64,000 nt of DNA from Ariolimax columbianus (Eukaryota; Mollusca; Gastropoda; Stylommatophora; Arionidae). Shown piece by piece: positions 3,101-63,912 of the stretch. The DNA is taken from contig JAVGWX010000001.1 in assembly GCA_036924085.1 (NCBI GenBank), forward strand, positions 335,001 through 399,000, read 5' to 3'. The position numbers and the translations under genes are program-made. Within the stretch, counting starts at the first letter, position 1; the number at the start of each line of letters is the position of its first letter. Under the pieces are notes generated by a model that saw only the letters and a program-made list of their open reading frames with translations, searched no databases and was not told the origin of the DNA.

Positions 3101-6100
3101 CTTACAACTATCACTCTTTAACTCACAACTCTAATTAGAACACTCAAACAATTATTGGAACTACAGCAATAACAAATGAATGTTGATTTTCTCAAACACC
3201 AAAATCGTATTATAACAATGAAATAGCATGCGTTAAAGTGTAAATGGGCGATGAATTTCAATATCCTTGTCACAATATTGTCGCAGAGTTGCCGATCAGA
3301 GATGTCAGACAGCAAACTGGCCACTACTTTTCATTTACATCTGATTTAGTTAAGTTAAAAATAGCTTGACTGATTGCATGGTACCGTCGTGGCGTGGATG
3401 TCTCCTGGCATCTTTGCCTTCAGCACCTGTTCTATGATGGAGTCTGCTCTACATTCCCGCTCTGGCAGAGAGCATTGATGTAGCAGCACCAGGCAATCTG
3501 ATCTTTGAAGAAACCTGATCACATGGACCATTAATGATTAACAGCGCCGCTGCCTTTCGTCCTCCTGACCGCAGCCTGCTCTGGTCTACTACTACTACAG
3601 ATTCCCGTTGGAATGTCCGGACCTTTTTCCTCTGAACTATTTATATTTTGACTCTGATCGTTTAGGGATGATTACAGCCAAACACAGCAGTGACTAACAC
3701 AGATTCTTTATAAATGAATAAAACAGTCAATTCTTGATTTTCTGTCCTCTCCATACAACAAGTAATAACACTGAACATCACAACAAGTAATAACACTGAA
3801 CATCACACAACATTATGATTTTCCTTTCACTCACTGACTTAGGCTGGACATCTAACTGATTATTCTCTCAACCAACTTTCACTTTCTGACTGACTACTGC
3901 TCCCTTCACTAACTACATCGATACATTTGTGTAATCACTCGGTTCTTGTTGTCAAATTCTAATATGAACAACACTTGTTTCTGATCTTTTTGGTTTGAGC
4001 TTGCATCCAATTTAGCTTGAGATTTCTTCTTCCTTCAGATTCCGATGTGGTATTAATGATCATCTGAGATGAGAAATTTGCTGGTTTTTTTCTTTCTCCC
4101 TTTATCTCACAGAACTTGAAATAACAAATAGTTGAACATCTCTTCCTTCTAGAACTTGGATATTTCAAGTCAAAACTTTACTGCTGAATGACTTAGTCGT
4201 CTAGGGTTTTCAATATGGTTGTAAGATATCTTAAGATAATCTGTGCTTCAATTCTTGAACCACTTGGCGAATTTATTCTGGTTTGTTTCTTAAACGAAAT
4301 CTGGATTTGGTCTTCTGTACTGAATGTCACTGGCTATCTTATAAATATAAATACAGCATAATTACCTCAAATACTCTTCTCTGGAAACTGGACTGTCTTT
4401 GTTGGTCTCCTCCACTCGTCACTCACAACCATTTTATTCCACGTCCCGTCTTAGTCCTTGAATCTTGTTCTACTTACGTCTTTTAGTGTCTCCAGTACTC
4501 GGACCACCTGGTGATGCCCCCACATAATGATGTCAGCCTCCTTGAGGAAATTTGTGCGTTTCATTGGTCCAGGGCTTTACGTGTACCCAAATTCTCCATT
4601 TTCTCCTTGGCTAAAACTAACAACGCCAAGATCCAGCGGACACAGAATATAACTGCTATCTGACTTCCCGCACCAAATTTTGGCTGGGGTTAGTTGTCTG
4701 GTGTAGAATAACTTAGGTTTAAAAATGCTAATTTATGCTGGTCTAGGTTCAGCTGTACTAACTCAAGGCCGTCGCTTTGGTTTCGGCAGATGTCTTGTGA
4801 ATGTAATATCCTGCCATTAGAAGCCTCAACAATACGGAGAATAAATCAAATGGCTTTCTACTCATTAATCTACTAATCCTTCACTAATGGTGGCTGCTAA
4901 GGTCTGTTACATTGACTAGGCTGATACAAGCTCTCCCATACGTGCTAAGGTCTGTTACATTGACTAGGCTGATTCTTCTTCTTCTTCGTAGATGCGTCGA
5001 TCAAATGTGACTCCCAGATAGTTTGGGTTGTCGTTTGGCTGCAGGTATTTGCCGTTTAGACTTAATTTGGTGTTTTGGGGTTTCTTCTTCTTCGTACGCA
5101 GTCAGACAGTAACCATTATTTTTTCGAAAAAAGCAGCCGTCATCCTGAGGCTGTCGACACTGCCATAGAGCTTGTCTAGTGTTGCCGCTGGTGATGGCCA
5201 CATCTGCTCTCTCTGATCCTCGTATGTCGGGCAGTTTTGCAGCAAATGCTCAGCGGTCATTTTCCCGGTACCACACGGGCATTCGTCGGTGCCACCTATC
5301 TTCAATTTGTTGAATAGGTGGTACCTCAGTCTATTGTGGCCAGTGCGAAGTCTGAAGACCACGACCTGCTCCTTTCTGTTCAGCTGGTAATAGGCATTGT
5401 TTTTGGTGTAGCCAGTATGTTCGGTTTCCCATTTGGTCATGTATCTAGCTCTAATAAGCCGTTTTGACTCTTCGTATGTCATACTAGTATCAGGTTGTGG
5501 TAGTTTTGCACCTTGTTTTGCCAGTCTGTCTGCCTCCTCGTTGCCTTGGATGTTGCAGTGAGATGGAACCCACTGCACCACTACCCTTTTTGGTGCGGAC
5601 TGCTGGCATAGTTGATAGAGTACTGTTCTTAAATCATTAAGTTCAGTATTTTTCTGGCTTTTTAGTGCTGTACAACGGCCAGAGCATCTGTAAGCAGGAC
5701 TATGTTGCTTTCATTACTTTTACCTGTCACCATTTCTTCCACTGCCGCCCTCAGTGCCTCTGCCTCCGCTCTGAAATTGCTTGTGTATTTTCTAGTAGCG
5801 AATGACAGTGTTATTTTTCTGCCATTTGGTAGGTTCAGAAATGTTCCTGCCCCTCCGTTCTGTGTTGAATTTGTTACGGAATCGTCGGTGTATGCATGGG
5901 TCAAGTCCATGCTTGGGTAGTTTTCCGTTATGTAACTCAGGGTAGTATCTCTTCTTTCTATTTCAGACTGGCAGTTTTTGTTTCCAATACCTGGTATATT
6001 TTCTACCACCTCTGGAAATATATGCTGCCTCCAGGTAGGTTTTCGTACAGTAGGGATGGGCTTTGGTGTTAGTGCGTTCATGGGGTTTTTGTGCATCTTT

Positions 6101-9100
6101 GCTTTGGCTATTTCTGCAAAGTTTCTCCGCTTTAGTTTCCCATTTCCTAAATTGTTTAGTCTCTGGTGCATTGGATGGTCAGTCAGTCTTCGGAGTTTCT
6201 CTGACTGCAGCTGGGCTCTGCAGTCTCTTCTGTCGGTCATGGATTGCAGTTTTGTAATCTTTTCAAGTTCTACAATTGGCATTGACTTCATGCCTCCTGT
6301 TATAACTCTCATGGCTTGGTTTTGGAGTTTGCTAATTTTTAATCGAAGTTCGCCTTTGCTGCTGTTGTCCATGCCGCAATGCCACACTAGAGAACTGGTC
6401 TCACTCTTCCAGTGTACAGTTTCTTAAGTATACTTTCGTCTGCTCCCCAGCTTGTGCCAGCAAGTTTCATCATGATTGCCATTCTTTCTCTGGCTCTCAT
6501 TCGGTTTCTCTCGATCTGACTTTTCCATGTCATGCGTCGATCAAATGTGACTCCCAGATAGGCTGGGTTGTCGTTTGGCTGAAGGTATTTGCCCTTTAGA
6601 CTTAATTTGGTGTTTTGGGGTTTGATTGATAGCGAGAATATTGTACATGTTGTTTTTTCCTCGTTTATTTTGACCAGCCATGAGTTCACCCACTCTTCCA
6701 GCGATGTTAGGGCCTGCTGCATCCGATTTCTTGCTATGGTGAGATTCTTTTCAGAGGTCCACATAGCCAGATCGTCTGCAAACATTGAGCTATGGACTCT
6801 TCTTGGTATTTTCTCTGTAATGTCATTTATATACACCAGGAAAAGTGTGGGTGACAGTACTCCCCCTTGGGGTACTCCCTGCTCGAGTGTCACCTTTTTG
6901 CTCATCTGCCCTTGTACTTGAACTCTGGCCGTTCTGTTTTTGAGGTAGTGGTTGATCCACTTGTACATTTTCCCACAAACTTCACTTCTTCTTAGCTTGA
7001 CTAAGTCCTTCTTTCCAGACTTTGTCAAATGCCTTTTCCAGGTCCACCCAAATCGCTACTGTGTGTTTCTGTTCCTGGTAGGCATCTTCTATTTCCTGGG
7101 CTCTGAGGATGACCTGATCCTCAGTGGATCTGTGCTGTCTAAAGCCTGCTTGCTGTGGAATTAGTATGCGTTTTTCTTCCAGATGTCACATCAGTCTGGT
7201 GTTTATCATACGTTCCTTCAGTTTGCCGACACAGCTCGGTAGGCTGATAGTCCTGTATCCATTTGGATCTGTTTTGTCTTTTCCTTTCTTTGGTACTGGT
7301 ACAAGTACTGCGTCTTTCCATGCCTGTAGTACAATACCCCTTTTCCAGCTTTGGTTCAGGACTGATAGCAGTTTCCTCTTTGCTGTTTGGCTCAGCCCCA
7401 TCAGCATTTCGTTTGTTATCCCGTCTTTTCCGGGAGATTTCCTTTTCTTTAACGTTCTCATGGCCTCTTCCATTTCGTTCATTGTTAATTTTTCCATCAT
7501 ATGCTCTTCTGGTGCCATATTGATGTTGTCGTGCCCCTTTTGCTCTTCATTAATGTCTGTGTGCCTATCTGCAGGACATCTATGTGGTTCGCTCTGGCAT
7601 AGTGTTCAACAAAGGCGTTTGCAGCTTTTTTTCCAGCGAGCAAGTTTTCGCCCTGCTTGATGGTAATTTGTTTGTTTGACGGAGTTTCGTCATTCATGGC
7701 TCTGACTAGCTTCCATAGTTTGTTCCCTTCTTTGTCCAAGTTGAGGCTTTCTGTTTTGTTTTTCCAGCTTTCTCTTGCTTTTTGGTTTAGAGTGTATTTG
7801 TATTTCGCCGTGACGGCTTTGAGGGCGATATTTGCCTCCATAGATTGTTCTCGCTCTGCCATGTTCCTAGCATTTGTGACTGCGTCTTCCGCTTTCTACA
7901 ACTCATCATTCCAATAGGGCTTATAGTTTTTCCTTGCCCCTCTTGGGATGGTTTCAGTGGCAGCTTGCATTATTGCTTTGCTTAGGCTTTCCACCATGGG
8001 CTTCATTTTGTTGTTCCGTGTGTTGATGGTTTCACACAGCCCATCTGTCAGGCTTGCAAATCTGTCCCAGTCGGCTTGTTTGTAATTCCAATGTGGGAGC
8101 GGTTTTGTTTCCTGTGGGCCTACTTCCATATCAATTTCCAACCCTAATTGGCCTGTGGTCGCTACCTGCCAATTGGTTTAGCACCTGGCGGTCTATTTTA
8201 TGGTGCATGTCGACTGTGGAGAAGGCCAAATCTGGAGTAGAGGTGGTATGCCATGTTCTAGAATAGAAGCTAGTGCTATCCTCCGGCCTGTTGATAAGAT
8301 AGAGATTTGTGTCTATCTCCCAATCTTCCACTTCGTCACCTCTGCTGTCTGTGTCAGAGTATCCCCATCTCTCCGAGTGGCTGTTGAAATCTCCAACTAC
8401 TATGCAGTTGAAGTCTTTGACTTCCATATTCGAGAGCGATAGGTCTTTATTTGGTGGTCCGTACAGGTTGAAAATGCGGATCTTCGTCTCTTGAGCCATT
8501 ATGTCAACTCCTACAATTTCTGCTTGTCCGGTGTGATTGACAGATACTGCGCTACTCGGTATGCAGTTACAGGTCAGTATCAGAACCCCTCCATTGTGAC
8601 CTTCTCTATCCAGGCGGAAGGCCTGGTATCCTCTGATTGAGAATTTATGGTTGCTGTTGAGGTGCGTTTCTTGGATACATGCCACGTCAATCTTACCTTC
8701 ATGCAAGTGATGTGTTAGAGAAAGATTTTTGTAAATGACTCCTCCGCATTCCACTGTAGTATTTTGAGGGTCTTGAGTTTTTGGTCCATAGAAATTGCCC
8801 CATAGCCATGTGTCTTGACTCCACAACACATGGGTGGGTGACCACCAGTAGTCAAGGGTGGTCCCCTTCGAGGCGTGAGGCCCGGCACTCTCGCTGCCTG
8901 GCGGGACTCCGCAGGATGAAAGCCATACATTTTTCTGTTAAGTTGTATTGTCATCGTACTGCGATTTACGTTGCACTGTGTCGTTAAGCCTGTGGCCCAG
9001 TGCATCCGATTTCAACAGGCGTTTCTGTAGGGATGCCCTCCTTAGCCTTTGGCTGTCCCCAGCCTATCTGCAAGGCAGCAGTTGTTTGTGATCAGAGTTG

Positions 9101-10225
9101 TCTCTCTTATGGAAGTTGTCTTACAGGACTAACGAGTCTTCACTACTCGTGTCTATAGGGTGCGGTGATGATATATGATATGGACTATGTACTGGTTTAT
9201 ACTAACCCGGAAGAGAGGCAGTCCAGTGTGTCTATATCCCAGGATCGTCACGTCCTGCCAGAAACGTAGCATTTGCATGTGAGTGGGGTATCTCTTTGCT
9301 CCCTTTATTTTCTAGCTTCTCTGCAGTGATGGTACGCCTAGCATTCCCCGCCACCTGGGAGGTTGACACAATAGGGCAGATGTGCAATGTCCGCTAGTCT
9401 GCATCTCTTCTGCGTCCATTGGTAGGGCTGATAGCATACAGAGGTAGAGATCGAGGCAGGAGTGCATTTAACCAGGGGACAAGCCTGGTAATGTCACGGA
9501 GATGTTGTTCTCCTGGTGTGCGGACATATCTCATGGTCATGGGTTGAGTCTCGACAGTTCACAGTGACGTAGCTGCTCTACTGTTTTCGACACCCCGACC
9601 AAGAACCAAGTCTTATGTTGGTGGTTTCGCACGCCATCGCCATATCGGGTGAATATCGAGCAGCTATCTGCCCGCTTTGATCGGCGGACGGCAGAGACCT
9701 CTTTCTGCGGCTCGACCGGGTAGGGCTGAGGCGCGAGCCCCAGGTCCCGACCATATCGAAGCCTCCCATTGCGGTGGTGCTGAGATTTTGGGCGGGATTC
9801 CGGCTTACAGGCGTTCGGCCGTAATCCCTCACATGGAAGCCTCGCGCCATTGGCTTATCAGCCTGGTACGTGAACCAAAAATGTCTGCGGCTCCTCTCGA
9901 ATTTAGCAGGATTACCGTAGCAACGCCCTGTCATTAGTAGGGTAAAACTGACCTGTCTTCCAAGGATTAACAGCACCCGTTCATTATTAGACCGGACGAA
10001 TTAATAGAGGGCTTTTTGTTTGTCAATGACCAGGTATCTGAAACCTGTGGTTTCTGCGGGGTTAAACACGATTTCCGTAGCGTTCTTTCATTAGAAGGTT
10101 AAAGAGCTGATCTGTCTTCAGTGGGTCTAATACCAGCACGCGTTCACTATTAGACCCAACGAAAGTGCTCTCGATTTGTCATTCGTTCTACGGTATTGGT
10201 GTGTTCAGTCAAATTAAGCCGCAGA

Positions 10226-10271
<46 letters not shown>

Positions 10272-13200
10272 TTTGCAACCATACTTCCCTCGGAACCCAA
10301 ACACTTTGGTTTCCTAGAAGCTGCCCGCAGAGTCATCGAAGCAACTCCTGCGGATCGCTAGTCGGCATCGTTTATGGTCAGAACTACGACGGTATCTGAT
10401 CGTCTTCGCGCCTCTGACTTTCGTTCTTGATTAATGAAAACATTCTTGACAAATGCTTTCGCAGTAGCTCGTTTTGCGGCGATCCAAGAATTTAACCTCT
10501 AACGCCGCAATACGAATGCCCCCGTTTGTCCCTGTTAATCATTACCTCCAGTTCCGAAAACCAACAAAATAGAACCAAGGTCCTATTCCATTATTCCATG
10601 CACCATTATTCAGGCAGCCGAGGCCTGCTTTGAACACTCTAATTTTTTCGAAGTAAACGCGCCGGCCACCCAGGACGCTCAGCGAAGAGCACCCGTGGGA
10701 GAGAGCCGGCAGACGGTAGGGCAGGAGACAACGGGCAGTGAACCGGCGCGAGCCTGACCGCCCACCTGCGCCTGAGATCCAACTACAAGCTTTTTAACTG
10801 CAACAACTTTAATATACGCTATTGGAGCTGGGATTACCTCGGCTGCTGGCACCAGACTTGCCCTCCAATAGATCCCCGTTAAAGGGTTTAAAGTGTACTC
10901 ATTCCAATTACGGGGCCTCGAAAGAGTCCCGTATTGTTATTTTTCGTCACTACCTCCCCATGCCGAGAGTGGGTAAGTTGCGCGCCTGCTGCCTACCTTG
11001 GATGTGGTAGCCGTTTCTCATGCTCCCTCTCCGGAATCAAACCCTGATTCCCGTTACCCGTCACAAGCATGGTAGGCATGTCACGTGCCATTGACATTTG
11101 ATAGGGCAGACATTTGAAAGATGCGTCGCCGGCACATGAGGCCATGCGATCAGCACAAAGTTATCAAGAGTCACCAGTGGGGACGCCGCACCCCCGCGAG
11201 GGGAAACGACGATTGGTTTTGAACTAATAAAAGCGCTCTTTCCGCGAGGGTCGGAGCTTGGTAAGCATGTATTAGCTCTAGAATTGCCACAGTTATCCAA
11301 GTAGGATCGTGTCATCTAAGGAACCTCGACTGATTTAATGAGCCATTTGCGGTTTTACCGTGAGACAGTGTGAACTTAGACATGCATGGCTTAATCTTTG
11401 AGACAAGCATATGACTACTGGCAGGATCAACCAGATATCTGTCGGAGACGTACGAACCACACACACTGATCGGCGGAGGACGGTTGTGTAAAACGCCTCA
11501 CTGGGACGGCCGCAGGGACCGACTGACGGATGGACGGTTGTTCCGTCCCTCACTCCGTCGACCTAGGACCGCCTGACAGGGGCCCCTACACACACCAGGC
11601 GACCGACCGACCGGGCTCGCTCGGGGAGGGATGGCAGCGCTCTGTGCAGAACGGATCCCAACGGCCCCGGCGATAGATTTCACAGGGACTGGAGACGATA
11701 TTTTGCCTGCCGGCCTGCCCTTCTCCCGATGGTCGGTCGGGCGAGAACAGGGCCTTTAGGCAGGATTCCTGCTTTCCATTTGCCGGTCACAAGCTCTTTG
11801 CGAGAGTCTGACCACTAGCGAGACGAAATGTCGAGCTCTGCTATAAGCCTTCGAAAAAGTACGACTGACTGTAAAAGTTTCTCGATACGGGCCAGAGTAA
11901 CGCACCTCTGCGGAGGGCACGACACCACAAACTGCGTCCAGCTACCTAGTCGGGGAGAGGCGGGCGAGCGTTTTCAGCAAGCCCGCGCTATCGCTTCGTC
12001 TGGCGGGACTGAGATCGCTGTACGAACACTGGGTGAGAGTGAATCGCGGCGGCGAGACAACTACCCCAGACTAGGCTGATACAAGCTCTCCCATACGGGC
12101 TGCTAGGATTGCTACATTGAGCTGGTCTAAACGTAAAGCTGACATTGTTTAACCTACATAAAGACTTGTCGAGAAAGGAAGTTGAGACAAGCCTAAAACG
12201 GCAGGGTCGACCTGGAAATGATATAGAGTGACCGAAAGATGTGGCAAGTATTTGTTTAGGCTCTACAGGGTGTTGCAACGTTTGGATTGATTGATCTACA
12301 TAAGATCTTCCTGGTATGTTTCAACATTTTCTATAATGTTCACAAATCAATTGAAATGAAATAGTAAAACAATTTATATATACTTTCATTTGTATTATTT
12401 TAAAGCTGTCATTGCCCCTATAAAGCCGACATTATCACTATAAAGCTGCCATTACCACTATAAAGCTACCAGTACCGATATAAAGCCACAAGTACCCCTA
12501 TAAAGGCACAGGACCCCAATAAAGCCACCAGTAAGTACCCCTATAATGCCATGTACCCCTATAAAACCATCATTACCCCTATAAAGCTGTCATTACCCCT
12601 ATACATTTCATTGTGACTCAATTGGGGGTAATGATCCTTTTGGCCCTGATGTAGACTTTGACATTATGAGCCTGCAGTCTGTCCAAGCCTTTTACTCTTA
12701 CACCCGGCATGTCCCTCATTCGGGTGAGGATATAGTCGATGAGATGCTGCTGTGTAGAGCAAGTATGCATCTTGTTGCGAGGGGGCAATTGAAACATGCT
12801 GTTAGTTTATACTCCAGGTACTCCTCAGGAATGATGCTTGGTCCCAACTCTGGCATCGGTGTCACTCGGACTTTAGAACTGATGATGTTCATTGTCTGGA
12901 CATAGATACTGATGTTTGTACAGATGGAGCAGCATGCAGGCTCTCGCCCTTCGGTCCCTAGACAATGATCACTGATCTTCCTGTGTCCCCATGAGAGTTG
13001 GAGAGTCATTAACACCCTGCAAAGTTTGCAGACTAGAGAGATCTGATGTCGATTCCGACACAAGCCTTTCATCATTCTGTGTTGTCACATCCAATCCATG
13101 AGGACTCGCTGCCCACACCTTCTGTGCTCTGGTCCTCTCCAGGCAATTATGTCTCACTAAGAGCACCCAGTTCTCTGACCACTAATGCTGTCCTGTTTTG

Positions 13201-16200
13201 GTCTATCTACATTAGCACTGTCCTATTTTGGTCTATCTACATTAGCACTGTCCTGTTTTGGTCTATCTACATTAGCACTGTCCTGTTTTGGTCTATCTAC
13301 ATTAGCACTGTCCTGTTTTGGTCTATCTACATTAGCACTGTCCTATTTTGGTCTATCTACATTAGCACTGTCCTGTTTTGGTCTATCTATATAGCACTGT
13401 CCTGTAATGTGAAGATGTTTCATGTAGTATGAAGGTCGATTGGTTTGTCTGGTAGGTCTGACGCTGTGCCTTGCATTTAAATAGATTGAAGTGAAGAACA
13501 TGCAATGTCGTCAACCTAGCTCTCGTGTCCTGAGCCACCTCCGTCCAATAGCAGGACACAGTTGAGACAACTGAAGGTAGTGCAGAAAGTGTATTGTATA
13601 TCAGCCTTTCCTGTTGTAAGCAGCACGACTACTGACTACATTTTTTATAGTAATCTGTTCAGATCCTAAAATGCTGCGTCAAAGCTAAGGGGACCGAATT
13701 GAGATAAGTTAACATGTTTAGATACCTGGACACATACATAACACCAGATGGAAGATGCAATTACGAAATAAAATGCAGAACAGCCCAAGCAAAATTGGTC
13801 TTCTAGACCATGAAGGGAACATTTTGCAACAGAACCTTGTTGCTGGAACTGAGAAAGAGAGTGCTTGGATGCTATGTGGAATCAGTACTGACATATGGCA
13901 GTGAATCATGGACAATCAGCAAGCAAGCGCATAGATCTTTGGAAGCAACGGAGATGTGGTTTTACAGAAGAATGCTGCGGATCCCATGGACTGCAAAGAA
14001 GACTAATGATACAGTACTCGAGGAGGCACAAACACAACTCATTGCATAGATCAGAACAAGGCAGTCGTTCTTTTTCGGGCATGTTATAGGAAGAGGTGGC
14101 TTGAAGCATGTTATGACAGGGTGAGAGACAAAGGAAGGCAGAGAGAGATATTTGACAGCCTGAGAGAGAGACAAAGGAAGGCAGAGAAATAGTTGGACAG
14201 CCTGAGAGAGAGACAAAGGAAGGCAGAAAGAGATGTTGGACAGCCTGAGAGAGAGACAAAGGAAGGCAGAGAGAGAAGATGTTGGACAGCCTGAGAGACA
14301 AAGGAATGCAGAGAGAGATATTGGATAGCCTGAGAAAATGACACGGGTGAGAATCGAGTTTGTAAATGACACACGTGATAGAAGCAGGTCGATGTCTATG
14401 ACCGACAGTGCCAATCGGCAAGGCACCTGATAATGATGATGTTCAGATGATTGTGACTCATCGTCTTTTATCAAAATCATCAATAAAGTCGAGGACTCAA
14501 TTTATCCTGCAGCTACATTATTGTTCAGGACGTCACGTTATTTAACCATGGTTGTTACTTTGAGAGCCTGTAACATTTTTATTTGGTGGTCTATTGATAT
14601 ATTTTTTTTTGTGAGTAGAGAAACAATTAAATAAAGCATTTGTTGGTGTTTTTGTTGTGTCTGTGTTAGTTTCTGAGGTAAAAAAAAATGTAGGTGATAG
14701 TGTTAAAAAAAAAAGACAGCACACTTAGACTCCCGCTTTCAGCGTCCCTTGGTTGAACAAATTTTAAAAAAAATCGCAGATGATGGATTACCGATGTTTA
14801 CCGTAATGGCTATGTCTGCCACCTCCACAATAAACATAATTATTGTATTTAAATAAACAATCTAAACAGATCTACCTCAGAGAAATCAGTTGCAGAAACT
14901 TGTCTCCCCCATTCTCAACAATTGGTGAATCTTCAAATCCAAGCGAAAAACAAGAAATCATTTCCAAGAAAACCATTTTTGGTATCCATACATTACGGAA
15001 GTCAGCTAGAGCCTGTCATGTTTGTATGCATGCGTATGAGAGCCTGACATGTTTGCATGCATGCATGCAGGAGCCTAACATGTTTGTATGCATGCGTGCA
15101 AGAGCCTGGCTTATTTGTATGCATGCGTGCGAGAGCCTGGCATGTTTGTATGCATGCGTGCAAGAGCCTGGCATGTTTGTATGCATGCGTGCGAGAGCCT
15201 GACATGTTTGTATGCATGCATGTGAGAGCCTGACATGTTTGCGCGCGTACGAAAGCCTGAAATGTTTGCATGCATGCGTGCGAGAGCCTGACATGTTTGC
15301 GTGCGTACGAGAGCCTGACATGTTTGTTTGCGTGCGTGCGAGAGCCTGGCATGTTTGCGTGCGTGTGAGAACCTGACATGTTTGTATGCATGCGTGTGAG
15401 AGCCTGTCATGTTTGCGTGCGTGCGAGAGCCTGACATGTTTACGTGCGTGCGAAAGCCTGACATGTTTGCATGCATGCGTGCGAGAGCCTGACATGTTTG
15501 CGTGTGTGTGAGAGCCTGATGTGTTTGCGTGCGTGCGAGAGCCTGACATGTTTGCATGCGTGCGAGAGCCTGACATGTTTGCGTGCGTATGAGAGCCTGG
15601 CATGTTTGCGTGCGTGCGAGAGCCTGACATGTTTGCATGCATGTGTGCGAGAGCCTGACATGTTTGCATGCGTGCGAGAGCCTGACATGTTTGCATGCGT
15701 ACGAGAGCCTGACATGTTTGCGTGCGTATGAGAGCCTGACATGTTTGCAGGCCCCACAAAGACAGCAATAATCCTGTATGAACACAACCTTCTTGTTTTA
15801 GGCGCTGGTTTCCTGACCACTTCAGTATGGCTCCTGTTAAGAAGGAAAACCACAGGTATGTTGTCCTGGTCTGGCTCTAGTCCCTGAACTCAGTCAACCT
15901 GATCCATCATAAACCACATCATCTTTACTTGTTGTGTCAGTCAATCACTTTTGATCACAAATAGATTATTCTATGTCATCATTATGTCTAAAGATATTTG
16001 GATACGGTCAGGTCTTCAATGTCCAGCAATTTATAATGCTTGAAGTACTGACATTGAATCTGTGAAATAACATTTTGGACCTTTTAAGGAAAGGCATCAA
16101 AAACAATCTTCAAATGGTACAAAGTGGCTTCAAATGCAGTGATTTCAGCTTCATAGTTAGAGCAAACCTCCCCGCAAGCATCAGACAGTTCATCAGAAGA

Positions 16201-22397: not shown

Positions 22398-63912
<41,515 letters not shown>

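Follow-up and report, generated by a model that had tools for sequence, protein, structure and literature searches.

A ribosomal RNA–LINE chimera in Ariolimax columbianus: one insertion, rRNA sequence at two levels of decay, and a possible origin by template switching

How could a single retrotransposed insertion come to carry ribosomal RNA (rRNA) sequence of two different ages in front of a long interspersed nuclear element (LINE)? This question is raised by a locus of Ariolimax columbianus (assembly GCA_036924085.1, contig JAVGWX010000001.1, positions 335,001–399,000 of the forward strand). The whole stretch of 64,000 nucleotides was analyzed and is referred to below as the window; all coordinates are window positions. 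The insertion, 7.1 kb long, occupies positions 4974–12068 on the minus strand. Its order on the sense strand, in a single orientation, is a leader above the 18S rRNA, 18S, 28S, the LINE leader, the endonuclease–reverse transcriptase–RNase H coding region, and a GAA tail. This arrangement and the boundaries had been given in a preliminary description of the window and were borne out. The same description overlooked that the rRNA carries two decay levels and that its decayed part comprises an 18S tail and two tandem 28S pieces, and it lacked a 92-nt internal LINE piece between two GAA tails at the 3′ end (4974–5083).

A single insertion with rRNA at two levels of decay

Three copies of the 12-bp repeat gactaggctgat occur in the window, each in plus orientation: at 4914, at 4962, and at 12069. 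Repeat search and flank joining identified two of them, 4962–4973 on the LINE 3′ side and 12069–12080 on the rRNA side, as a perfect target-site duplication (TSD) adjoining the element ends directly. When the flanks were joined with one TSD copy, a 48-bp minisatellite unit was obtained that matched the neighboring unit 4895–4942 at 48/48 positions; the copy of gactaggctgat at 4914 lies in the same phase of that unit. The minisatellite extends over 4895–4961, is split by the insertion, and resumes at 12081. Since the interrupted unit is restored at 48/48 positions, a chance TSD produced by the minisatellite was rejected, and the repeat is regarded as a true duplication even though it lies within tandemly repeated DNA. 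Target-primed insertion by a LINE is recognized by a flanking TSD, by endonuclease, reverse transcriptase, and RNase H domains, and by the 3′ tail of the family, all of which were found. Foreign RNA sequence is fused in sense orientation to the 5′ side of the LINE within one TSD pair, as in template-switch chimeras. Together, TSD, GAA tail, and uniform orientation show a single retrotransposition event by the LINE machinery.

The 3′ end of the insertion is more complex than a single tail. The first GAA tail (5082–5093, minus strand) has four GAA, and comparison of copies showed that other copies of the LINE in the window terminate there. It is followed by a 92-nt piece of LINE reverse transcriptase coding sequence (4992–5083, minus strand), 95.7% identical to 6532–6623 of the LINE body, and then by an outermost, second GAA tail (4974–4991, minus strand), which consists of TAC and five GAA, resembles the LINE 3′ end, and shares one base with the TSD. 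The 92-nt piece and the LINE body differ at four sites, and at each of these the piece agrees with one of two other window copies, B or C. A late duplication of the decayed body can therefore be discounted as its source, and the piece was likely acquired during the insertion itself.

The 5′ two thirds of the 18S rRNA (~1.23 kb; 10208–11437, minus strand) are near-intact and were matched by Rfam to SSU_rRNA_eukarya with 886.9 bits (10291–11434, minus strand). Above them lie 631 nt (11438–12068, minus strand) that are likely the 5′ external transcribed spacer (ETS), a label given from their position. Past the 18S letters GAACAC, the 18S continues as a decayed piece in register with the fresh part (10157–10194, minus strand; alignment and Rfam), with ~15–17 nt lost in the alignments. 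Rfam put this tail at the matching region of the model. A chance alignment was rejected, since 0/5000 shuffles reached its score against a general 18S reference stretch.

Two 28S-derived pieces follow. The longer one, the decayed 28S 3′ part (9524–9990, minus strand), was matched to LSU_rRNA_eukarya with 107.1 bits (9526–9929, minus strand). At window position 9524, its homology arrives at the final position of the 28S model (3401/3401); the end piece alone scored 43.2 bits (E 1e-9), and the LINE leader starts where the homology stops. The second piece (10026–10153, minus strand) is tandem to the longer one at a spacing of 163 nt and has derived changes in common with it: 18/129 derived states are shared compared to 4.6 expected under independent decay (p = 8e-7), a count made against a general 28S reference and one that host-specific letters may inflate. 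Because of these common states, the tandem pieces likely come from one already changed copy that was duplicated long before the insertion.

As a measure of decay, mismatches were counted at those positions that the Rfam consensus marks as strongly conserved by upper-case letters. They numbered 21/489 in the 18S before the break and 22/132 in the pooled 28S pieces (17/103 in the longer piece alone; Fisher p = 6e-6 for 18S vs. 28S). The last 18S block, 1196–1230, which has 8/21 mismatches and spans the break together with the final fresh letters, was excluded from the 21/489; with this block included, the 18S count was 29/510 and the difference persisted (p = 2e-4). These mismatch counts omit the low-conservation blocks 18S 696–741 and 28S 3186–3249 and the gap-rich 28S placement 2901–2923. 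If part of the 21 mismatches of the 18S reflects normal variation of the host, as it may, the contrast would only be wider. The LINE body of the chimera had copy-private changes in 31/1107 columns, a rate not different from that of the 18S mismatches (p = 0.13), where 1107 gap-free of 2237 columns were counted and stretches with copy D opposite a gap were excluded. We infer that the 18S was near a working sequence at landing, and that the 28S had decayed beforehand. In the Rfam alignment of the 28S piece, letters that we take to be those of the sarcin-ricin loop are changed, and, judged from these letters, the piece does not look like working 28S.

The shorter 28S piece can form a hairpin at 10117–10163, with 16-nt arms that are 88% complementary and 15 nt between them. 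An open frame of 140 aa that crosses the 28S part was considered as a gene and rejected: the search gave 10 candidates and no hit at E 0.001. A ribozyme of the R2 kind where 28S and LINE meet was also unsupported, as the four matches listed for 8800–12200 at E up to 1 included no self-cleaving family.

Origin of the chimera

The explanation that we prefer, and to which we give about an even chance, is template switching, in which reverse transcription would have passed from a LINE RNA already bearing old rRNA sequence to pre-rRNA within their 18S homology. Target-primed synthesis would have begun on a GAA tail, as the outer tail and the TSD suggest. The enzyme would then have incorporated the 92-nt stretch from inside the LINE before going back to a GAA tail; the piece is present, and the switches are what would place it there. 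Next, copying would have continued through ORF2 and the leader into the decayed 28S/18S stretch, all three observed in this order, with the stretch presumed to belong to the LINE RNA. Finally, the enzyme would have passed in register onto a fresh 18S and into the sequence above; the register and the change in decay are seen at the locus, and a switch would account for them. The older 28S sequence would stem from a previous jump, made from the 5′ terminus of a LINE to the 3′ terminus of mature 28S rRNA, because the homology stops at the last 28S model position (3401/3401), the outcome expected of an end-to-end template jump. On this view, rRNA would serve as a source of new LINE front ends.

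A further and more tentative proposal, possible but rather doubtful, is that the LINE lineage keeps an rRNA-derived leader (18S tail plus tandem 28S) as a homology bridge for repeated recombination of its reverse transcriptase with living pre-rRNA, whereby the front end would be renewed. Should the decayed stretch be part of the LINE family, LINE 5′ ends would repeatedly receive sequence from pre-rRNA, and the switch point of the enzyme would be set by the homology of captured to living rRNA. A LINE led by RNA polymerase I (Pol I) should not be assumed for daughter copies, because an RNA copy is without sequence upstream of the transcription start; the chimera copy alone would not carry the upstream part of the Pol I promoter.

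Several points weigh against template switching as set out here. A single rRNA-bearing copy was seen, the remaining copies in the window being 5′-truncated, and for this reason the decayed rRNA stretch is a putative part of the family leader. In-register continuity is equally expected from a single RNA of a decayed rDNA unit. Copy B is no closer to the 92-nt piece than the body is, with four differing sites in each comparison, so that neither stands out as the donor. The 5′ ETS reading of 11438–12068, although likely, is drawn from position, and copying as far as the pre-rRNA 5′ end is accordingly conjectural. Conservation was judged from the Rfam consensus and not from host rDNA, and the reference stretches for the 18S-tail register and for the tandem-28S comparison were general ones.

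The preliminary description had favored a LINE sitting in an ordinary rDNA unit, co-transcribed by Pol I and retrotransposed as one fused RNA. In its simple form, with an intact unit carrying an 18S-to-28S deletion, this accounts for the uniform orientation and the one TSD pair, but it predicts one rRNA age, which is contradicted by the mismatch contrast between 28S and 18S (22/132 vs. 21/489), and the 28S pieces with their common derived changes imply descent from an already changed copy. The end of the 28S homology at the last model position and the two further joins at the 3′ end also speak against simple co-transcription, and we consider it very unlikely. Adding an ageing unit to the same model gives the main rival to template switching. 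Here, a LINE master copy would reside in a decayed, orphan-like rDNA unit that Pol I transcribes as a whole; homogenization would keep the ETS and 18S fresh, the 18S tail and the 28S would decay and duplicate, and the fused RNA would be retrotransposed. Such a master copy would explain the in-register 18S continuity, the order of parts in one RNA, and the decay contrast. It requires, however, a LINE at the 28S 3′ end as well as a partly homogenized unit and leaves the 28S end, the extra LINE piece, and the second tail unexplained; we regard it as unlikely, though well ahead of the other alternatives.

A shift of divergence at ~10208, in register, would also be produced if a LINE lineage had gained all of its rRNA in one old insertion and if, once the present copy had landed, the 18S and the part above it were renewed from rDNA by ectopic gene conversion. 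More than 1.2 kb would have to be converted ectopically soon after insertion, and the 18S mismatch rate (21/489) resembles the change of the LINE itself (31/1107), so we rate this event as improbable as simple co-transcription. RNA ligation has been proposed beside template switching for sense 28S/LINE-1 chimeras (PMC13174262), and RNAs could likewise have been joined here before reverse transcription, by ligation or trans-splicing and without template switching. The in-register 18S join is more natural for homology-guided switching, and two more joins are present at the 3′ end; among the alternatives we find pre-joined RNAs the least probable.

The LINE, its relatives, and the host locus

Pfam recognized Exo_endo_phos_2 endonuclease, RVT_1, and RNase_H domains in the LINE. 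They belong to a broken ORF2 (open reading frame 2) at 5102–8954, minus strand, the start codon of which was set at 8954 by similarity to the N-termini of two relatives, P0002 and P0003. The LINE leader comprises the 569 nt between the ORF2 start and the 28S end (8955–9523, minus strand); no ORF1 was recognized by eye in its three sense frames. An rDNA-specific LINE of the R2 type was rejected, since the copy lies in a minisatellite and not in the 28S target site and its endonuclease is of the Exo_endo_phos type; the R2 endonuclease is of the restriction-like type.

A read-through LINE query found 220 relatives at E up to 0.001. Among the best 120 of the 220, P0002 and P0003 were the closest over the full query (65–66% identical), and the species-named ones came from two gastropods, Littorina saxatilis (four relatives, 41–50% identical) and Batillaria attramentaria (one, 47%). 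By themselves, these names would make a gastropod or some other mollusc the likely host. Among the matches listed, many full-length ORF2 relatives (about 1200–1330 aa) were on contigs of ~4–5 kb, which barely exceed the coding region. In the viral contig collection, the P0002 pattern matched 9 stretches and query A1 matched 31, with 0 relatives in either case, and the exact 28S word was absent (0 matches). Scanning the genome contig collection with LINE query A1 gave 22 pattern-matching stretches and 0 relatives.

Self-comparison revealed four further LINE copies in the window, three longer and one short, all 5′-truncated relative to the chimera. It had been claimed that TSD length and tail of the chimera match those of other copies. 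The GAA tail is indeed common, and TSD-like repeats of 15 bp, ~15 bp, and 14 bp were found for copies D, C, and C2 (one mismatch each in C, judged by eye, and in C2), but none was found for copy B. The TSD lengths of D and C are weaker evidence than that of the chimera because both copies lie within repeated DNA. Copy D (46206–47262) interrupts a minisatellite with a 42–43-bp unit, and copy C (30680–32720) is also in repeat-rich DNA. Either a preference of the LINE for minisatellites or chance may lie behind these sites: tandem repeats with a period of at least 10 make up about 25% of the window, and only five LINE sites are at hand.

The suggested location in a REXO2 intron is likely but not proven. 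REXO2-like pieces on the plus strand flank the insertion at 2722–2826 and at ~15798–15850, with the element antisense to both; their motifs are those that we take to be of REXO2. The first piece alone gave no Pfam match, and both pieces joined scored 19.3 bits with RNase_T, below the cut-off of 24.

Other mobile-element remains occur elsewhere in the window. An open reading frame at 39694–40164, plus strand, matched Transposase_1 as a partial DDE domain (31.4 bits vs. the Pfam cut-off of 24). Two reverse transcriptase fragments on the minus strand, 47895–48272 and 60149–60643, gave RVT_1 scores of 29.0 and 27.0 bits (cut-off 29.6), and self-comparison with the chimera showed no match at either of them.

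Comparison with known systems

A mammalian short interspersed nuclear element (SINE) derived from 28S rRNA is reportedly short and non-autonomous. In this SINE (Longo et al. 2015, as cited in PMC13174262), as in the chimera, 28S-derived sequence forms part of a retroelement; here, the 28S pieces lead a coding LINE. The R2 elements of 28S genes (PMC3774820, PMC8789037) are similar in that LINE RNA is linked to rRNA, which for R2 occurs through rDNA co-transcription. R2 occupies a specific 28S site, whereas the present chimera lies in a minisatellite, likely inside an intron of REXO2, and in its case rRNA sequence was itself mobilized. The reverse transcriptase of Bombyx R2, a non-LTR (non-long terminal repeat) enzyme, jumps between templates in vitro (PMC8857657), an activity that favors the template switching proposed here.

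Tripartite LINE chimeras of Magnaporthe and mouse consist of several fused RNAs, carry direct repeats of 14–16 bp, and were proposed to result from double template jumps (PMC2104539). The multiple RNA parts and the direct repeats are common to them and to our chimera, and they too speak for template switching here. By contrast, rRNA is mentioned 0 times in the main text on these chimeras (PMC2104539), and we noted no two-age part and no in-register join in them.

Among the closest systems are also the human 28S/LINE-1 chimeras, described in 2026 from 18 loci with 28S fragments of 50–482 nt (median 269 nt), 83% of them in sense, for which RNA ligation or template switching was proposed (PMC13174262). 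In both cases, an rRNA fragment is joined to the LINE 5′ side in a single insertion. Unlike the human chimeras, the locus studied here has ~1.23 kb of 18S and a further 631 nt above it; these are fused to an 18S/28S stretch in a more advanced state of decay, and the LINE has RNase H and a GAA tail. In the main text on the human chimeras, the term “18S” occurs 0 times (PMC13174262). The opinion of the preliminary description that no such case had been described was thus too strong for the general kind. As to the exact form, among the top matches listed from the openly licensed literature, we found no chimera with 18S and upstream sequence and no in-register join of old and fresh rRNA. Chimeras of rRNA and LINE are already known as a kind, and the form with 18S plus upstream sequence and rRNA of two ages appears to be new. 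To this kind, the locus adds a much longer ribosomal piece starting above the 18S, another LINE type, and an in-register join to decayed rRNA.

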